Source: a virus
IMG/VR virus record: IMGVR_UViG_3300042463_001151
Span: 1 to 36,442 of that record
DNA: 36,442 bases
Direction: 5' to 3' (one strand)
Positions 7,554 to 27,149 of the stretch are shown piece after piece. Position 1 is the stretch's first letter, and every line of letters starts with the position of its first letter. The position numbers and the translations under genes are program-made. Below the pieces are notes generated by a model. It had not been told where the DNA came from. It saw nothing but the letters and a program-made list of their open reading frames with translations, and searched no databases.

Positions 7554-10500
7554 TTAGCATGATCCATCAAACATTGAAATTGTTGCTGTACCTCCATCGG
7601 CTATAATTAATCCACCAAATATTCTACTTGTTCCAGTTGCACTTATACATGTAATATTAGTTGCAGTATCTATAACCTCAACAGAGTCATTACTTACGTT
7701 AGTATAAGATACAACTATTGTTTGAGATGAGCCAGTTTGATTAGTTGTAGCAGATGCTCCATCTCCTGCAAATATAGGGAATACCGCTCCAGATACTTGT
7801 ACTCCATTTACTGTAATATTTGTAATATTTGTACCAGCCGTTACGTTACTAATATCTACAAAAGCATAACCAAGCGTTGTTGTGGTTGTTGTAGGTGCAA
7901 CAGTTGTTGTTGTAGGACTTAAAGTTGTGGTTGTTGGAACAGCAGTTGTTGTTGTAGTTGTCGGAGCAGCAGTTGTTGTTGTAGCTGCACATCCAAATAC
8001 GCCTTGTGAAGTTAATGTATATAAAGTTCCACCAGGTAATGTTGTTGTACTACCTATAATGATTACTGTTCTTGTTGGGAAACCACTTGCAACTGCGGTA
8101 CATCTTTCACTAGATGCGAATGTTCCCGGAGCATATGCTATTGAGTATGCAGTAGAACTATTTGCACAATCTAAGATATTATAATATACAGGTGCTGGTG
8201 TGGTTGTCGTAGTTGTTGGAGCAGCAGTCGTTGTGCTTGTAGTAGGTACAGCAGTTGTTGTGCTTGTAGTTGGCACAGCAGTTGTTGTACTTGTAGTTGG
8301 CACAGCAGTTGTAGTTGTAGTTGTCGGAGCAGCAGTCGTAGTTGTAGTAGTTGGAGAACAATTAGAGCAATTACTAGATATAGTACAAGTTGTTCCACAG
8401 CTATATTCTCCTAATAATCCACCAATTGGGCTATTTACTACAATTATAGAACCACCTTGAATACAATGATTTCTTGTAGCTCCAGCTAATAAGTTTGGAG
8501 ATTGAGTTGTTCCATCACAATTAGTTACTGTATAATTAATCGTTACAGAATCTTCATTTACCACTGTCCAACACTCACAAGGTAATGTAGTAGTGGTTGT
8601 AGTCGGAGTAGCAGTTGTTGTAGTGGTAGTAGGTACAGCAGTTGTTGTACTTGTAGTAGGAACAACAGTTGTTGTACTCGTAGTAGGAGCAAGAGTCGTT
8701 GTAGGTACAGCAGTCGTTGTACTCGTAGTAGGTACCACAGTTGTTGTACTTGTAGTAGGAGCAGCAGTTGTAGTAGTTGTTGGATTACAAGATGCACCAA
8801 TATCTGCAAAAATGTAAGGCGAAGCAGAATCAACAGAATCTAGTTGCGCACAAATAATAAGTGCCGCACCTCTATTTATACGACTACTATTAACTAAAAC
8901 ACCTGCACAAGTAAGATATGAGAAATCATAAGAATCTCTATTGTCCGTACCATCGTCAGCATAAACTGTATATGTAAAGCATGCTGGCGAAGCAGTTGTT
9001 GTACTTGTTGTCGGAGCAGCAGTGGTTGTCGTTGTCGGAGCAGCAGTGGTTGTCGTTGTCGGAGCAGCAGTGGTTGTCGTTGTTGTTGGCGCAGCAGTTG
9101 TAGTTGTAGAAGTTGTTGGAGCAGCAGTTGTGGTTGTTGTTGGCGCAACAGTTGTTGTTGTTGTTGTTGGATTACACGCTGCACCAATATCCGCAAAAAT
9201 GTAAGGAGAAGAAGAAGAAACACTATCCAATTGCGCACAAATCACAAGTGCCGCTCCCCTATTTATACGACTGCTTTCAATTAAAACACCTGCACAAGTA
9301 AGATATGAGAAAGGATAAGAATCCCTATTATCTGTACCATCGTCTGCATAAACAGTATAGGTAAAGCAAGCTATTGCAGCAGTTGTCGTACTTGTTGTAG
9401 GTCCGCTAGTTGTGGTTGTAGTAGGTGCAATTGTTGTTGTTGTAGTTGGATTACAAGATGCACCAATATCTGCAAAAATGTAAGGCGAAGGAGATGTAAC
9501 ACTGTCTAATTGCGCACATATTACAATTGCTGCCCCCCTATTTACACGACTACTATTAACTAAAACACCTGCACAAGTAAGATATGAGAAAGGGTAAGAA
9601 TCCCTATTATCTGTTCCGTCATCAGCATAAACTGTATAAGTAAAGCAAGATACTGGAACAGTTGTAGTACTTGTTGTAGGAGCTGCAGTTGTAGTTGTAG
9701 TTGTAGTTGGATTACAAGATGCACCAATATCTGCGAAAATGTAAGGAGAAGTAGAAGCAACGGTATCTAATCTCGCACAAACAGTAATTCCGGGACCTTT
9801 ATTTACACGACTGCTTTCAACTAAAACTCCAGCGCAATTGATATATGAGAAAGGATAAGAATCTCTATCCTCTGTTCCATCATCTGCATAAACAAAATAA
9901 TTAAAACAAGATACTGCTAAAGTCGTTGTACTTGTAGTTGGAGCAACTGGAGGACAAGGTCCTGTTTTACAATCTCCAACAGGCGTTAAAGTACCAGTAC
10001 CTGCTACAATTTCAGCTTGCAATAACCCCCCAACCACAGACGCACAAATATACCTAATCCCTGCTGAAGGATAAGCATAGTTTTCATTTACACCGAAACA
10101 ATTTAATGTAGCTACCTCTCCACCTGCTGATGTAATATTAACTTCAACACAATTACAAGGTTCAGGACTAAATGTTGTAGTAGACGTTGTAGGACTAAAT
10201 GTAGTTGTAGTAGTACGAGCAACTGTGGTGGTAGTTGTAGTAGGAGCAATTGTTGTAGTAGTAGGAATTGAATATCTATTAATCTCCTCCATAGCAATAA
10301 TGTATTTATTAGTATTTGCATCAAATACACCATAAATACATGGATCACCAGTATAAACACCTCCATCAGAAACACCATTATTTAAATCTTTTCTGTATGC
10401 AGCTGTTTTACCAACAAAAAAAGAATTTGTTTTATAAAGAATACTAATTGGTTCAATTCCATTTTGGCTTAATCTACAAACCACACCTCTATAATTATCT

Positions 10501-13500
10501 ACAAAGTAGTCTGCGAAGTTATTCCATGCAAGACTTGTTGCAGCATCTCCAATACCATAATCACCTGCGTAATATTGTATTTTATTAATTAATTGGTCAC
10601 TATTTGCTTGCAATGGGTTGCCTGTTACATCTTTTACAATTTGAGTCAAAATAGGCACATTACCTACTTTAAATTGCTGATAAACTTTCAAATACCTATC
10701 TCTAACATGCAATCTCAATACATCTCCAAATGTTCTATCATATTCATCAAAATCTTCGTAAAGAAATCTATTAGTGGCGTTAAGGTTGGTGTTTGATTGA
10801 TATGCTTGTCCAAATCTAATTACAGTTGGGAAATAAGTTTGTCTTGCGTTTTCGTCAATAACAGATGGTCTGCCATTGCTATTTGTAACTAAATTATATG
10901 TATCGTTAAAACTTTGCTCAATAATCCCAATTGTTTTTTCTTTTACAACTTGAAAATCAAATCTAAATGGTTGAACAATTATATTATTAGAACCAGTGTT
11001 GTCATTTGTAGATTTAGCTACTATCCATACTTTTCCTGTTGCAGGTACAGTAAATCTTTTATTAATTGTAAATGTAGTAGACGTATTTTGAATTATATTA
11101 TTAATCTCTATTGGTAATAAATTAATTGTATATTTTGCAGCAGGCGAACCTGTTGAAGTACAAATAACAGCATATACTGAAAAAGTAGAAGTGCCATCAG
11201 ATGACATATTAAAAGATCCATTAACTGATAAAATAGTTTCAGCAGAACTTGATTTATTATAGAAAAAATAACCCACACTTGTCCAAATAGGGTATCCAGT
11301 TCCGGTTAAATTTATAAGTGCATTTGGTTGAGTTTGTATTCTATATGCAGCATTTTCTATTGATCTCTCTATAAAAATAGGGAACGATTCAGTTCTTGAT
11401 ACAAAAGATCCGGTAGTCCCAATATCAAATCCACTAGATGAAAAATTAAAATTGTCACTGTATGGTACTGTTCTGAGTCTATAAAACAAATCACCATTTG
11501 TTACAGGTACAACAGCACCTCCATTTGGTAATTGCGACATCCCAAAATGATACCTATCTAACGTACCCGGATTACCTATCCCATATTGTTTACCAAATTC
11601 ATAAAAAAACCTCTGAGTTTCATTTGCATTACTGGTATAATTATATAATAATATTTCATAATGTTGAAAATCAGCCGTACCCGGAAAACGAAAATCAATA
11701 CTTATATCATTACTAGGATATCTTATTTTTAAGAAATTTCCGTTAGCTGTGTATGTATTGTTGTCTATAGCTATTGGAGCAGGCCAGCTAATATTATATT
11801 CAAATGTAGATACTGTACCAACTATCTCATAATCATATTGAGCTGGAATAGGTCTTACATTATTCTCTGAATCATATCTTTGTATAAATCTAATTCTATC
11901 ACCTTCTGTATAATTATAAGAAACAACATTTTGTGTAGAACTTATGGTTTCATTATATGCAGCTATATTATCAATCCCAATATAAAAAAATCTTGAACTA
12001 TCTACATTATTACTTATTCCAGCAAAAGCAGAATCGCTTATCCAACATAATCTTTTATTATAAGTAGTATTATTTGATCTTAATACTTGATAATATGTAG
12101 CATATAATGGTGGTCTATTAAGAATATTTAATCTTATTTCAGGGAAATCTGTTGTGGATACTCTTGAAGGAGTATTAATTGTAGCATTAATAGATGTTTG
12201 TGCGCCAATGGTTCTCCCTTGTGCATCAAAATATTGAATAGCATATTGATAACCAGAATCCCATACATTGGCAAATCGGGTATTATCTGAATCATATAAA
12301 GGGATTGTTTTAAAACCTACTGAGGTTAAAACAAATCCATTTGCATAATTCATAACTAACTTATTGCCTACTAATGATACTTGAGTATAACCTTTTAATA
12401 CCATTGCAGCCGAAATACCAGCTAAAATTGTATTAACTGCTAAAGAAATTGAAAATGTTGAAAAATCCGCACTTAAATTTGTACCATCTGAAGCAAATGA
12501 ATTAATAAAATAAGATCCAGCTGCATTATTTAATGTTACAACTTCTCCATTTACTCCATTAGTTCCAGTACCATAAAGGTAAATACTCATCTGTGTCCCA
12601 GTACCGCTATCTGTTCCATTCACCGTAGCTAGCAATAAAATACCAGCTTGGTCATAAAAAAAACTAGAAGAAGCACCAGTAAATTGATCAACAGATAAGT
12701 CCATTGCTGTTTTATCATAACCTTCTAATATACCAGCATATAATAAAACATTCCCATTAGCTAATTCGGCTGCGTTAGCCCTTTGAGGAACCCAATCTTG
12801 CAATTGGTCAGATTCTATAATATCTATTTGAGTATAAATAGAGTCGTTAAAAAACTTTGTAACGTAAATATCATTATCAATATTTGATACATTAAAAGAT
12901 TCTATTAAAAACCAATCGCTAGTTACACCATTTGTAGTTTCTCTAAAACAAAGTTCTACAGCTTTTACATCTGGACCACCAGTTGAAAATAATACAGCTA
13001 TTCTTGAATTATTTTTTGGATTATCATCTGTAAGTGTTAAAGAAGGCTGTTGAGGTAACGGAACAATACTTTTTGAACTCCATACAGACTTTTCATTGTT
13101 ATCATAAACATATCTGTATGAAAATTGAAACAACTTGTTTCTTAAATTGTTAATAGTTATAGTAGTATCATTTTCGTAAACTACTTTTGGTGGCATTACT
13201 GGAGGAGCTTTTGCAACTAGCAAATACTCTAATTTCCAATTATTACCGTATAAGTTAATTACATTTAAACTTTTTGGCGGATTATAACCATCGTTAAAAA
13301 ATAAAATATCACCTTCATCATCTCTATAAAATATATTTACCGATAATACTTTATAAGATGGGTTAAAATTTAATATATCAATACCATTACTTTGCGTTTT
13401 ACTTATTAAAACAGGTACTACTGCATTTGTATTTAAGTCATAATACAATATTGTATTAAAACCATTGCTATTCCATAAAAAATAATAAGCTCTATTTCTT

Positions 13501-13715
13501 ACTTTGTCAGAATAAAAACCTATAACTTTATTTGTACCATTAGGTGCTGTATAAGGTATTAATGTATTTCCTTCTATGTTAGAAACTACTTTGTCAGCAG
13601 CTGCGCCTAAAGCATCTTTTGTTATATTTAAAGCGTCAATATAGTCATTATTACTAATTCTATAATCAGCATCATCTAAGTTTAGCTTTCCACTAAAAGG
13701 AGTATTTATTATCAT
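7554..13715 (-). CDS. P22 gp10-like stabilisation / muzzle protein with Thr-rich modular C-terminal extension, 2053 aa
   Basis: Residues 1 to about 1150 look like the stabilisation protein of short-tailed phages: the start NTPFSGKLNLDDADYRI, then YIDALNITKD, followed by many beta-strand repeats (for example FYSDKVRNRAYYFLW) typical of gp10-like propellers. The family part ends with GVFDANTNKYIIAMEEI. From about 1150 the chain becomes an array of Thr-rich linkers (TTTTTTAAP and variants) separating small Cys-containing domains. These are one at about 1187, four nearly identical 67-residue modules between 1270 and 1645, one at about 1712 (CECW), one at about 1841 and a final domain at about 1951-2053. 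It should sit at the distal tail and could expose receptor-binding modules. It lies between a ring protein (4-base gap) and the 182-aa protein that resembles its missing C-terminus. Confidence 0.8.
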   Translation of the reverse strand: MIINTPFSGKLNLDDADYRISNNDYIDALNITKDALGAAADKVVSNIEGNTLIPYTAPNGTNKVIGFYSDKVRNRAYYFLWNSNGFNTILYYDLNTNAVVPVLISKTQSNGIDILNFNPSYKVLSVNIFYRDDEGDILFFNDGYNPPKSLNVINLYGNNWKLEYLLVAKAPPVMPPKVVYENDTTITINNLRNKLFQFSYRYVYDNNEKSVWSSKSIVPLPQQPSLTLTDDNPKNNSRIAVLFSTGGPDVKAVELCFRETTNGVTSDWFLIESFNVSNIDNDIYVTKFFNDSIYTQIDIIESDQLQDWVPQRANAAELANGNVLLYAGILEGYDKTAMDLSVDQFTGASSSFFYDQAGILLLATVNGTDSGTGTQMSIYLYGTGTNGVNGEVVTLNNAAGSYFINSFASDGTNLSADFSTFSISLAVNTILAGISAAMVLKGYTQVSLVGNKLVMNYANGFVLTSVGFKTIPLYDSDNTRFANVWDSGYQYAIQYFDAQGRTIGAQTSINATINTPSRVSTTDFPEIRLNILNRPPLYATYYQVLRSNNTTYNKRLCWISDSAFAGISNNVDSSRFFYIGIDNIAAYNETISSTQNVVSYNYTEGDRIRFIQRYDSENNVRPIPAQYDYEIVGTVSTFEYNISWPAPIAIDNNTYTANGNFLKIRYPSNDISIDFRFPGTADFQHYEILLYNYTSNANETQRFFYEFGKQYGIGNPGTLDRYHFGMSQLPNGGAVVPVTNGDLFYRLRTVPYSDNFNFSSSGFDIGTTGSFVSRTESFPIFIERSIENAAYRIQTQPNALINLTGTGYPIWTSVGYFFYNKSSSAETILSVNGSFNMSSDGTSTFSVYAVICTSTGSPAAKYTINLLPIEINNIIQNTSTTFTINKRFTVPATGKVWIVAKSTNDNTGSNNIIVQPFRFDFQVVKEKTIGIIEQSFNDTYNLVTNSNGRPSVIDENARQTYFPTVIRFGQAYQSNTNLNATNRFLYEDFDEYDRTFGDVLRLHVRDRYLKVYQQFKVGNVPILTQIVKDVTGNPLQANSDQLINKIQYYAGDYGIGDAATSLAWNNFADYFVDNYRGVVCRLSQNGIEPISILYKTNSFFVGKTAAYRKDLNNGVSDGGVYTGDPCIYGVFDANTNKYIIAMEEINRYSIPTTTTIAPTTTTTTVARTTTTTFSPTTSTTTFSPEPCNCVEVNITSAGGEVATLNCFGVNENYAYPSAGIRYICASVVGGLLQAEIVAGTGTLTPVGDCKTGPCPPVAPTTSTTTLAVSCFNYFVYADDGTEDRDSYPFSYINCAGVLVESSRVNKGPGITVCARLDTVASTSPYIFADIGASCNPTTTTTTTAAPTTSTTTVPVSCFTYTVYADDGTDNRDSYPFSYLTCAGVLVNSSRVNRGAAIVICAQLDSVTSPSPYIFADIGASCNPTTTTTIAPTTTTTSGPTTSTTTAAIACFTYTVYADDGTDNRDSYPFSYLTCAGVLIESSRINRGAALVICAQLDSVSSSSPYIFADIGAACNPTTTTTTVAPTTTTTAAPTTSTTTTAAPTTTTTTAAPTTTTTAAPTTTTTAAPTTSTTTASPACFTYTVYADDGTDNRDSYDFSYLTCAGVLVNSSRINRGAALIICAQLDSVDSASPYIFADIGASCNPTTTTTAAPTTSTTTVVPTTSTTTAVPTTTLAPTTSTTTVVPTTSTTTAVPTTTTTTATPTTTTTTLPCECWTVVNEDSVTINYTVTNCDGTTQSPNLLAGATRNHCIQGGSIIVVNSPIGGLLGEYSCGTTCTISSNCSNCSPTTTTTTAAPTTTTTTAVPTTSTTTAVPTTSTTTAVPTTSTTTAAPTTTTTTPAPVYYNILDCANSSTAYSIAYAPGTFASSERCTAVASGFPTRTVIIIGSTTTLPGGTLYTLTSQGVFGCAATTTTAAPTTTTTTAVPTTTTLSPTTTTVAPTTTTTTLGYAFVDISNVTAGTNITNITVNGVQVSGAVFPIFAGDGASATTNQTGSSQTIVVSYTNVSNDSVEVIDTATNITCISATGTSRIFGGLIIADGGTATISMFDGSC
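7879..10263 (-). repeat. Thr-rich low-complexity linkers in the tail gene
   Basis: At least eight tracts built from TTTTTTAAP, TTSTTTAVP and similar units lie approximately at 7879-7989, 8199-8352, 8584-8780, 8992-9167, 9378-9446, 9657-9707, 9919-9945 and 10164-10263. At DNA level they are GTTGTT/GTAGTT arrays on the plus strand. They join the small C-terminal domains. Because the repeats lack stop codons, the opposite strand and other frames also stay open here. Confidence 0.9.
8781..9908 (-). repeat. Four in-frame copies of a 67-residue Cys module
   Basis: Copies lie at 9708-9908, 9447-9647, 9168-9368 and 8781-8981, each exactly 201 bases. Each runs from a CF-x-Y start to a CNP end, has four conserved Cys and an acidic loop (YADDGTDNRDSY), and ends SPYIFADIGA-S/A-CNP. 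The last three are almost identical; the first is more diverged (EDRDSY, VNKGPG). Thr-rich linkers of 60, 78 and 186 bases separate them. This indicates tandem duplication inside the tail gene. Confidence 0.92.
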
Positions 13716-20104: not shown

Positions 20105-20485
20105 TTAAGGTGCAGCCGTTGTTGTTGTAGTTGCAGAACCTTGTAATAATAAATAATTACCAATAATACCAAATGCAACAATACCACTTGCTGCAATTGA
20201 TGTAACATCAGCTTTTGATGTTAAATTAACGCCAGCAACAGATACCCAGTTAATAGGCACTTCTGGTGCTGGTAATAATTGTCCTGTAATAGAACCATTA
20301 TCATTTGTAGTACTAAAACTAATTGTTCCAGATGTTCCTACAAATTGAACTACCGCTGAATCCCATCCAGATAAATCTTGATAAAAAGAATTATTTGTGT
20401 TAAATGATTCAGTCGCATCTACAGTTGTACTAATTTTTGAACTGAATTTTTGTAGTCTTATTAAAAGCTTACTTACCGTTGCCAT
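20105..20485 (-). CDS. Small virion protein ending in a Thr-rich tail, 126 aa
   Basis: Residues 1-115 are beta-rich (SGWDSAVVQFVGTSGTISFS, then PAPEVPINWVSVAGVNLTS), like small capsid decoration proteins. The last residues are GSATTTTTAAP and then stop, which is one unit of the linker that is used many times in the giant tail protein and in the protein at 26175. Having a linker at the very end with no following domain is odd. The gene sits 25 bases after the portal gene. Decoration protein is the best guess, from composition and neighbours only. Confidence 0.65.
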   Translation of the reverse strand: MATVSKLLIRLQKFSSKISTTVDATESFNTNNSFYQDLSGWDSAVVQFVGTSGTISFSTTNDNGSITGQLLPAPEVPINWVSVAGVNLTSKADVTSIAASGIVAFGIIGNYLLLQGSATTTTTAAP

Positions 20486-25018: not shown

Positions 25019-25405
25019 TTAATATCTTTTGCCAGCTAATTCGCCTACTGCATCGGCCATGTTTTCTGGAGAAAATGGCTTTCTATTAACTTGAACTACT
25101 TCTTTTTTATCGTTAGTTTCTTGATTAATACCAGCTAATACTTCTAAAGCCTTAATTGAAGCTGAAATTGTTCCAGCATCTACCCATATTTTTTGTAATC
25201 TTTCAAATGTCTTAATTTTAGGATCATCAATATCAATTGCAGTAAGACTTGTTTTATTTAACAATTCAGCCATTTCATTAGCTTTTCTATTAAGTGCATG
25301 ATATAGTTTACCTATCCCATCTTGTTGATAATAAGCATTTTTACCTTCTAAATAAGCTATTTGTTTTTCTAAATCCTTAATCTTATTTTCTAATTCTGCT
25401 GACAT
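25019..25405 (-). CDS. Coiled-coil protein beside TerL, small terminase candidate, 128 aa
   Basis: Residues 1-50 form a heptad-rich coiled coil (LENKIKDLEKQIAYLEGKNA). A second helical part has IKTFERLQKIWVDAGTISAS and IKALEVLAGINQE. The C-terminal 40 residues look flexible and basic. Position two bases upstream of TerL, size, and a helical multimer-like architecture suit a small terminase subunit, but no helix-turn-helix is obvious, so the call is tentative. It overlaps the upstream 221-aa gene by TAATG. Confidence 0.55.
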   Translation of the reverse strand: MSAELENKIKDLEKQIAYLEGKNAYYQQDGIGKLYHALNRKANEMAELLNKTSLTAIDIDDPKIKTFERLQKIWVDAGTISASIKALEVLAGINQETNDKKEVVQVNRKPFSPENMADAVGELAGKRY

Positions 25406-26070
25406 TAATTTAATTTTTTAGCATCTGAAATATTATAACCAATCAATAAATCTCCTTTTACAACTTTTTCAGTCAATTCATGCTCAACCGAAATTACTTC
25501 GTTTCTATCGTTGCCTTCTGGATAATATCTTAATCTTATAATTTTACCTTCTGTCCCATCATCATTTTGATATATAATTTCATAATCACTTGATATTACA
25601 GTACCTACAACATTGCCTGCTAAATCTCCGCTTGTAACGTAAATTTTATTTTTAACCAATTTAGGTTCAATTCCTTCTAAGAAACCAGTGTATGGTTCAA
25701 AAATCCTTAACCCAGTAATAAAATTATTTAAAGCGTTCCATGTGGAACCTTTTTCCTTTCTCCACATAAAGCACTCTTCAATTGGTATTGAAAAATATTG
25801 CATGTCAGAAGATGCTTCAGCTGTTGGTTTTTGATAGTTGAAAATTTTATAAGTGTCATGAGTAGCATTATGGTGAATTAAAATTTCAGAACCAACAGGT
25901 ATTCCGACAGCATCAACTACTTCCGCGTTTACTGGCTTAACATAACGCATGTTAAAATTATCATATACTCTTTCTAGTTTAATCTTTGTGCCATCTTTAA
26001 ACGTATGGCTGTTTTTACTTTCTAAATCAACCTTAATGATTACTCTATTACTTGGAGCTTTCAATTTCAT
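25405..26070 (-). CDS. Conserved phage protein with possible cpn10-like barrel, 221 aa
   Basis: Begins MKLKAPSNRVIIKVDLESKN, then IKLERVYDNFNMRYVKPVNA, AEVVDAVGIPVGSEILIHHN. The first 85 residues recall the GroES barrel in order (RVIIKVD, then PVxAEVVxVG, then GSEILIHH). Other strands follow (GLRIFEPYTGFLEGIEP, IIRLRYYPEGNDRNE), ending TEKVVKGDLLIGYNISDAKK. Proteins like this are frequent beside terminase genes in Bacteroidota phages and prophages, with no function that I know of. It is the first gene of the leftward late block. The A/T-rich leader holds a TTTAATTAAATTAATT motif just before the ATG. Confidence 0.6.
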   Translation of the reverse strand: MKLKAPSNRVIIKVDLESKNSHTFKDGTKIKLERVYDNFNMRYVKPVNAEVVDAVGIPVGSEILIHHNATHDTYKIFNYQKPTAEASSDMQYFSIPIEECFMWRKEKGSTWNALNNFITGLRIFEPYTGFLEGIEPKLVKNKIYVTSGDLAGNVVGTVISSDYEIIYQNDDGTEGKIIRLRYYPEGNDRNEVISVEHELTEKVVKGDLLIGYNISDAKKLN

Positions 26071-26123: not shown

Positions 26124-26131
26124 TATATTTG
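26124..26131 (+). promoter_or_regulatory. Rightward Bacteroidota-type promoter of the paralogue pair
   Basis: TATATTTG at 26124-26131 is an exact TAnnTTTG -7 box. A T-run lies about 19-20 bases upstream (26101-26105) in place of TTTG. The leader to the ATG at 26175 is about 35-40 bases and A-rich. Confidence 0.7.
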
Positions 26132-26174
26132 TATTGCCCAAAAAAAAATTTATAACAAAAAAAACAATTAAAAA

Positions 26175-26546
26175 ATGGCAAATCATGTAGCAGTTTATGT
26201 TTATCGTAGAAACCAATACGATTTAACGAACCCTAATGGAACACCTGCAACTAGCGGTGTATTATTTTCATTACCAACCGTTGGATTACAAGTTCAACCT
26301 ACTACTGTAGTAGCAAATGGCGTACAAATGAATTCATTAATTCTTATGTATCCAAGTGGTCTTAATCAACCAGCTGAAAAATTATATAGCGATGCATCAG
26401 TTGCTACTTTAATTACAGCTATCAATGGTGGTGGTACTGTACCAACAACAACTACGACTACAGCAGCTCCAACTACGACTACAGCAGCTCCAACAACTTC
26501 AACAACTACAGCAGCTCCAACAACTTCAACAACTACAGCAGCTTAA
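26175..26546 (+). CDS. Small beta-rich protein with Thr-rich C-tail (paralogue 1), 123 aa
   Basis: The body (about 1-90) has MANHVAVYVYRRNQYDLTNP, then GTPATSGVLFSLPTVG and VVANGVQMNSLILMYPSGLN. The tail from about 91 is only linker: TTTTTTAAPTTTTAAPTTST and so on, ending TTAA. The same body is repeated in the next gene without the tail. The pair is transcribed against the surrounding genes from its own promoter and ends in its own terminator, so strong separate expression is likely. A virion decoration or host-surface-contact role is possible, judged from the tail shared with the tail protein and the protein at 20105. No known family recognised. Confidence 0.7.
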   Translation: MANHVAVYVYRRNQYDLTNPNGTPATSGVLFSLPTVGLQVQPTTVVANGVQMNSLILMYPSGLNQPAEKLYSDASVATLITAINGGGTVPTTTTTTAAPTTTTAAPTTSTTTAAPTTSTTTAA

Positions 26547-26583
26547 TTTAAAAAAATTTAAAAACAATCAAAAATATTAAAAA

Positions 26584-26847
26584 ATGGCAAGTATAGTATC
26601 AATTACAGCATATCAAAGAAATCAATATGCTTTATTAAACCCTAACGGCACTCCTGCAACTTCTGGTATTTCTTACGGATTCCCAGTAAGCACAATTACA
26701 GCTTACCCAGCTCCTTCAGGAACAGTGGCAAACGGAGTGGTTATGAATTCAATAGTTGAAGTAGCACCTACTGGTTTAAACCAAGTACCGGTATTATTTT
26801 ATACGAATTCTACTGTATCTCAAATTAATGCAGCAGCAAACGCTTAG
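26584..26847 (+). CDS. Small beta-rich protein without tail (paralogue 2), 87 aa
   Basis: Paralogue of the preceding gene: RNQYALLNPNGTPATSG here against RNQYDLTNPNGTPATSG, and TVANGVVMNSIVEVAPTGLN against VVANGVQMNSLILMYPSGLN. It stops where the Thr tail begins in paralogue 1. The leader between them is A-rich and 37 bases long. A terminator follows 19 bases after the stop. Function unknown; the duplication suggests that two versions, with and without the flexible tail, are useful to the phage. Confidence 0.7.
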   Translation: MASIVSITAYQRNQYALLNPNGTPATSGISYGFPVSTITAYPAPSGTVANGVVMNSIVEVAPTGLNQVPVLFYTNSTVSQINAAANA

Positions 26848-26866
26848 TCTTAAAAAAACGTAAATT

Positions 26867-26896
26867 AGCCCCTTTTTAACGAGGGGCTTTTTTATT
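26867..26896 (+). terminator. Rho-independent terminator, partly bidirectional
   Basis: A perfect 7-bp stem, AGCCCCT with AGGGGCT, around an eight-base loop is followed by six T. It ends the rightward pair. The stop codon of the leftward 46-aa gene lies in the loop, so the same hairpin may also end the replication operon, although its leftward T-run is weak. Confidence 0.85.
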
Positions 26897-27016
26897 TTCT
26901 TTATGTACTGTTTTTAGGTTTTTGTATATCCTTTTAGCATCTTCTAATGTTTTACCAGCACCTGCTGCCATAAATACAGATAATCTTCTTAATTTTTTAG
27001 CTGCTTTATTATTCAT
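26876..27016 (-). CDS. Conserved small basic phage protein, 46 aa
   Basis: Short gene: MNNKAAKKLRRLSVFMAAGA, then GKTLEDAKRIYKNLKTVHKE and a basic end. The N-terminal AAKKLRRL plus the IYKNLKTVH helix recalls a tiny protein widespread in Bacteroidota phages ('KAAKKLRK ... Y-K-x-LKK-x-H'). It forms a pair with the 40-aa gene just upstream. Its stop codon sits in the loop of the terminator. Function unknown; nucleic-acid contact is plausible from the charge. Confidence 0.65.
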   Translation of the reverse strand: MNNKAAKKLRRLSVFMAAGAGKTLEDAKRIYKNLKTVHKENKKAPR

Positions 27017-27025
27017 AATTTAATT

Positions 27026-27148
27026 TTACCTCCCTTGACCGCGATATTGCTTGGGTTTTGGAGAATGTTTGTTATAAGATTTCTTTGCACTGCCTGTTTT
27101 TCTACTACCAAATGTTACCTTTCTTGAATCTGTTTTAACTTTTGCCAT
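27026..27148 (-). CDS. Conserved small basic phage protein, 40 aa
   Basis: Forty residues, strongly basic: starts MAKVKTDSRKVTFGSRKTGS and ends SYNKHSPKPKQYRGQGR. The end SYNKHSPKPKxYRGQGR is a pattern I recall from many Bacteroidota phages. The ATG at 27148 lies just after the stop region of the winged-helix gene (1-base gap), so it is the next operon gene. The role is unknown. Its charge suggests RNA or DNA binding. Confidence 0.65.
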   Translation of the reverse strand: MAKVKTDSRKVTFGSRKTGSAKKSYNKHSPKPKQYRGQGR

Positions 27149-27149
27149 T

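Follow-up and report, generated by a model that had tools for sequence, protein, structure and literature searches.

An inverted two-gene island in short-tailed phages of Bacteroidota type that probably encodes a swappable set of virion surface proteins

T4 Hoc and phi29 gp8.5 are small surface modules that sit on the phage particle and can carry exposed domains. The island described here shares no homology with either in any search, and its slot is core rather than optional. In phi-crAss001, the head fibres gp21 (a trimer) and gp29 (a dimer) have N-terminal docking parts in different hexon pockets (PMC10172136). Our island, found in a 36,442-nucleotide stretch of viral DNA (IMG/VR record IMGVR_UViG_3300042463_001151; hereafter the window, meaning the whole stretch analyzed), resembles the crassvirus head fibres in comprising two proteins per system in short-tailed phages of Bacteroidota type. 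The docking parts of gp21 and gp29 span 38 and 58 residues, as compared to ∼85 residues for the domain shared by the two island proteins (the P domain), and no inverted, swappable cassette is described for crassvirus head fibres in PMC10172136. Short-tailed phages of the Pachyviridae/Elemovirus type (phi18:3, elemoE) have homologues of the TerL, the portal, the MCP, and the large tail protein, although these homologues are distant (∼20–30% identity; only 26–30% for TerL), and neither elemoE nor phi18:3, a relative annotated by MS, has a detectable P-family gene.

The island consists of two small genes, P1 and P2, that run rightward amid leftward genes: GroES-like, TerS, and TerL on one flank and o90, o73, SSB, and DnaB on the other (Table 1). 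A reading of the sequence alone had described the two genes as inverted paralogues, one with a Thr tail and the other ending where that tail starts, and this description held. P1 and P2 are 45% identical over 86 aa (E=2e-22, single comparison), and P2 stops at the point where the P1 tail begins. Among relatives, the P1 tail ranges from 18 to 44 residues, with T, A, P, and S accounting for >95%. In 40/40 distinct complete pair-type sets, P1 is tailed and P2 tailless; the difference is therefore not due to chance. Recent copying of the tail from the tail-protein gene was considered and set aside, the longest common DNA word being only 14 nt. Both cores are under purifying selection (dN/dS ∼0.11 for the P1 core and ∼0.21 for P2), identifying P1 and P2 as selected proteins and, together with their conservation, ruling out chance or noncoding ORFs. 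Two small basic ORFs lie on the minus strand next to the island (26878–27017, ∼46 aa, and 27028–27149, ∼40 aa), both shorter than the threshold of the ORF listing; the end of the first falls inside the island terminator.

Table 1. Positions in the window of the island features and of the related genes discussed in the text.
Feature	Position	Strand	Remark
Large tail protein, many internal Thr linkers	7554..13715	-	
aux126, portal-adjacent, short Thr tail	20105..20485	-	
GroES-like protein, first gene of the TerS-TerL packaging operon	25405..26070	-	phrog_13932, E=8e-7
Predicted Bacteroidota -7 promoter element TATATTTG (TAHHTTTG)	26124..26131	+	conserved upstream
A-rich leader of P1	26132..26174	+	80% A in last 20 nt
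P1, promoter-proximal copy: P domain plus Thr-rich tail	26175..26546	+	123 aa
P1 Thr/Ala/Pro tail, residues 89-123 (35 residues)	26439..26543	+	mixed Thr codons
P2, distal bare copy	26584..26847	+	87 aa in every pair-type relative
Intrinsic terminator closing the island (predicted)	26867..26888	+	GC stem plus T-run

Sequence searches of Pfam, PHROGs, and the PDB with the P domain returned nothing or matches at chance level, and Foldseek gave no significant match (best E=0.012). Known decoration proteins did not match the P domain by sequence or by fold in any search, and cultured phages yielded no P homologue, only one chance-level match. PDB matches to PH/PTB domains were set aside (TM ∼0.3–0.4), as were the low-complexity matches between the tail and models of silk and mucin. 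AlphaFold2 produced a moderately confident small beta/alpha fold for P1 and P2 (pLDDT 79 and 83), in which the shared ∼85-residue domain is predicted to form a small beta sheet followed by a C-terminal helix. FlbD-like small phage proteins have a similar predicted topology by Foldseek (TM ∼0.6), but with E-values that are not significant and ∼10% sequence identity.

A dedicated promoter, A-rich leaders, and a terminator had been claimed for the island, and predicted elements of all three kinds were found. The TATATTTG element upstream of P1 agrees with TAHHTTTG, the -7 consensus reported for Flavobacterium johnsoniae (PMC6847099). Of 31 distinct upstream regions covering the slot promoter, 30 retain the element and one reads TATCTTTG (a 32nd entry, a coding stretch of the third gene copy in contig L054, was left out); the sequence around the box diverges between unlike types while the box stays. 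It is also present ahead of all single-copy alleles of close relatives, and the same motif lies upstream of the portal gene (51/51 loci) and of g229 in the window. One contig (L180:3381–4904) has a TATATTTG box ahead of each of its two copies, a fibre-bearing first and a bare second. The fraction of A in the last 20 nt of the island leaders is 0.80 and 0.70. Comparable values for MCP (0.70), aux126 (0.85), and SSB (0.80) indicate that A-rich leaders are not a specific mark of virion genes. The GC stem and T-run of the terminator are kept in other loci, single alleles included, and the region holds three terminator-type sites versus 0.7 expected from shuffles. Conservation of these motifs supports the view of the island as a putative self-contained unit with its own promoter and terminator.

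A scan of IMG/VR recovered 65 loci with relatives of the island genes, all metagenomic. The order TerL-, TerS-, GroES-, P1+, P2+ was observed in every locus with flanks in the data, followed by leftward o90, o73, SSB, and DnaB where recognizable. When loci were instead collected by the flanking GroES-like protein (n = 82), a family member occupied the inverted slot in 82/82, although many loci are near-copies and locus counts overstate the independent evidence. These comprised 56 pairs, namely 55 Thr-tailed plus bare (including a divergent pair in L225) and one fibre plus bare (L180), together with 26 single bare copies. Because every one of the 82 loci is filled, the slot is a core position. 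The sequence-only reading had proposed either a decoration protein or a moron; a moron, as an optional gene absent from relatives, is thus not supported, while the virion-surface role is the best-supported reading and the one we infer. The GC content of the island is 0.367, with values of 0.328 for the window, 0.383 for MCP, and 0.341 for TerL.

A second GroES-anchored scan reaching more distant phages found a family member in 15 of 20 new contigs. Two of the others (L355 and L356) have no member within 6 kb, and in three (L349, L362, and L369), likewise without a member, the flank ends early. In the family tree, P1 and P2 fall into one supported clade each, as does a distant single-copy group. 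The L225 pair (L225:4316–4887) is a very divergent tailed plus bare pair, ∼40% identical to P1/P2, in the same slot and order, and L054 has three copies, two of them tailed, the middle one with a P2-like N terminus. In the distant single-copy clade (L071–L073, L075–L081), some genes next to the slot resemble glycosyltransferases (matches to family 2 and family 9) and others read like methyltransferases and an epimerase, an arrangement that suggests a putative glycosylation cassette around a surface-protein gene. GTDB genomes gave no match to P; a search of them with the GroES-like protein found two contigs, one under the title Candidatus Taylorbacteria and one under Cyclobacteriaceae, which are not enough to identify a host.

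Alleles are exchanged at this slot. Close single-copy alleles encode 78–81 aa and are mostly 36–44% identical to P1/P2 (one 52%), and the phages that carry them reach 96% identity to the window in TerL, 91% in GroES, and 90% in portal. Contigs L175 and L238 differ only at the slot, one having a pair and the other a single copy; they share 98.3% identity across 5.8 kb of one flank and 97.8% across 4.2 kb of the opposite flank. The breakpoints fall in the conserved gene ends, within ∼46 nt of the start of the genes and ∼83 nt of their end. Ten changes between pair and single are needed on each of the GroES, SSB, and TerL trees, at least six, four, and seven of them, respectively, being forced by starred branches.

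The family occurs in four forms: bare, Thr-tailed, fibre-like, and Fib_succ_major. The 43 distinct sets that combine an extension with a bare copy (40 Thr plus bare, two fibre or lectin plus bare, and one Thr plus Thr plus bare) all have the extended copy in the promoter-proximal position, and none shows the reverse order of bare first and extended second. The earlier suggestion that the tailless copy acts as a spacer or competitor fits this rule of gene order. According to the tree, an extension was gained independently at least twice. The fibre-like and Fib_succ_major fusions come from one contig each. In the former (L180), the proximal copy has 401 aa; the part after the P domain matches the PHROGs tail-protein family phrog_4577 (E=2.4e-4), and the last ∼40 aa recur in proteins of Xanthomonas and Streptomyces phages, one of which is annotated as a tail fiber protein, and also match a solved hyaluronidase. 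In the latter (L427), the proximal copy carries Fib_succ_major (PF09603; Pfam E=1.9e-37, 129.8 bits against a cut-off of 33.9), a domain that also occurs, according to PMC4159848, among the variable proteins of diversity-generating retroelements. A role as the target of such an element was rejected, no reverse transcriptase or template repeat being found: RVT_1 was absent from six related contigs, most of them fragments, and L427 contains no repeat of at least 40 nt.

Runs of Thr were surveyed throughout the fetched genomes. Besides P1, they occurred in the large tail protein, in aux126, and in small proteins by the tail gene, as well as on a few unassigned small ORFs (L159, L347). Outside P1, most Thr runs in these genomes belong to virion proteins. 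A structural protein that was detected by MS in Cellulophaga phage phi18:3 is a homologue of the N-terminal part of the large tail protein. The large tail protein also contains four similar repeats (VYADDGT...YIFADIGASC) with Thr linkers between them. In L340 (6458–7096), aux126 and an aux88-like domain, encoded by separate genes in the window, are joined through a Thr run into one protein of 212 aa; Thr runs therefore behave as linkers of structural proteins. The possibility that aux88 and aux126 are a second paralogous pair was discarded, the two being unrelated. In an alternative reading, P1 and P2 act inside the cell, in counter-defence or host takeover, by binding a host target, and the Thr tail serves as a solubility or spacer element. 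Such proteins could well be small, insulated, and duplicated, with their own promoter, could lie between replication and packaging genes, and could be rapidly exchanged within an otherwise conserved backbone. However, the extensions are display modules, Thr runs elsewhere belong mostly to virion proteins, and occupancy of the slot in every one of the 82 close loci is not what typical accessory anti-defence genes show, and we regard this alternative as possible but unlikely.

As read from the sequence, the N termini of P1, P2, and the copies with other extensions have no obvious hydrophobic signal peptide, and no transmembrane segment is evident in P1 or P2. With no export signal, the modules would be exposed mainly via the virion. 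A virion-surface role is thus the most economical reading, given the Thr-run census, the promoter motif shared with the portal gene, the display-type extensions, and this absence of an export signal; against it, the island is not part of the head-tail operon and runs on the opposite strand. The island probably encodes virion surface proteins that can be swapped as a set, and by its position and exchange it may constitute a core, insulated, allelically exchangeable virion-surface locus of a Bacteroidota-type short-tailed phage group. The ∼85-residue domain would dock on the assembled virion, more likely on the head, with the promoter-proximal copy bearing an exposed C-terminal module, in the window a Thr-rich stalk. 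The bare distal copy would take the same or neighboring sites and so set the density of the displayed module. We favor, with some reserve, this division of labor, in which the first copy displays a module and the bare copy fills the remaining sites; the virion location, the docking, and the co-assembly of P1 and P2 are what we infer from the genes. Display would not be a universal function of the family, since many phages have a bare copy only.

A second alternative places the P domain on the tail rather than the head, as the base of a receptor-binding protein or tail fibre that governs host range. The fibre-like and lectin-type C-terminal domains, the tail label of phrog_4577, and allele swapping typical of host-range determinants are all consistent with such a role. 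However, most alleles lack any receptor-binding domain, a bare protein of 80 aa is unlikely as a fibre, and repeated domains are already present in the large tail protein of this group, making this assignment distinctly doubtful. A superinfection-exclusion or surface-masking protein released at lysis would account for allelic diversity and insulated expression but is very improbable for proteins with neither a signal peptide nor a transmembrane segment evident.

Returning to the virion-surface reading, we give about an even chance to its most specific form, in which the P domain serves as a virion-docking module not described before, one core locus exchanges display alleles (none, Thr stalk, fibre, or lectin-type) through conserved gene ends, and a co-expressed bare paralogue sets display density. 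None of the protein-family libraries searched contains the P family, and naming the family would therefore annotate a core gene of many metagenomic phages. If the virion-surface reading is true, a common group of uncultured phages varies its particle surface by swapping display alleles while the backbone stays constant, and co-expression of a bare copy points to an easy means of controlling how many copies of a displayed domain a virus particle bears.
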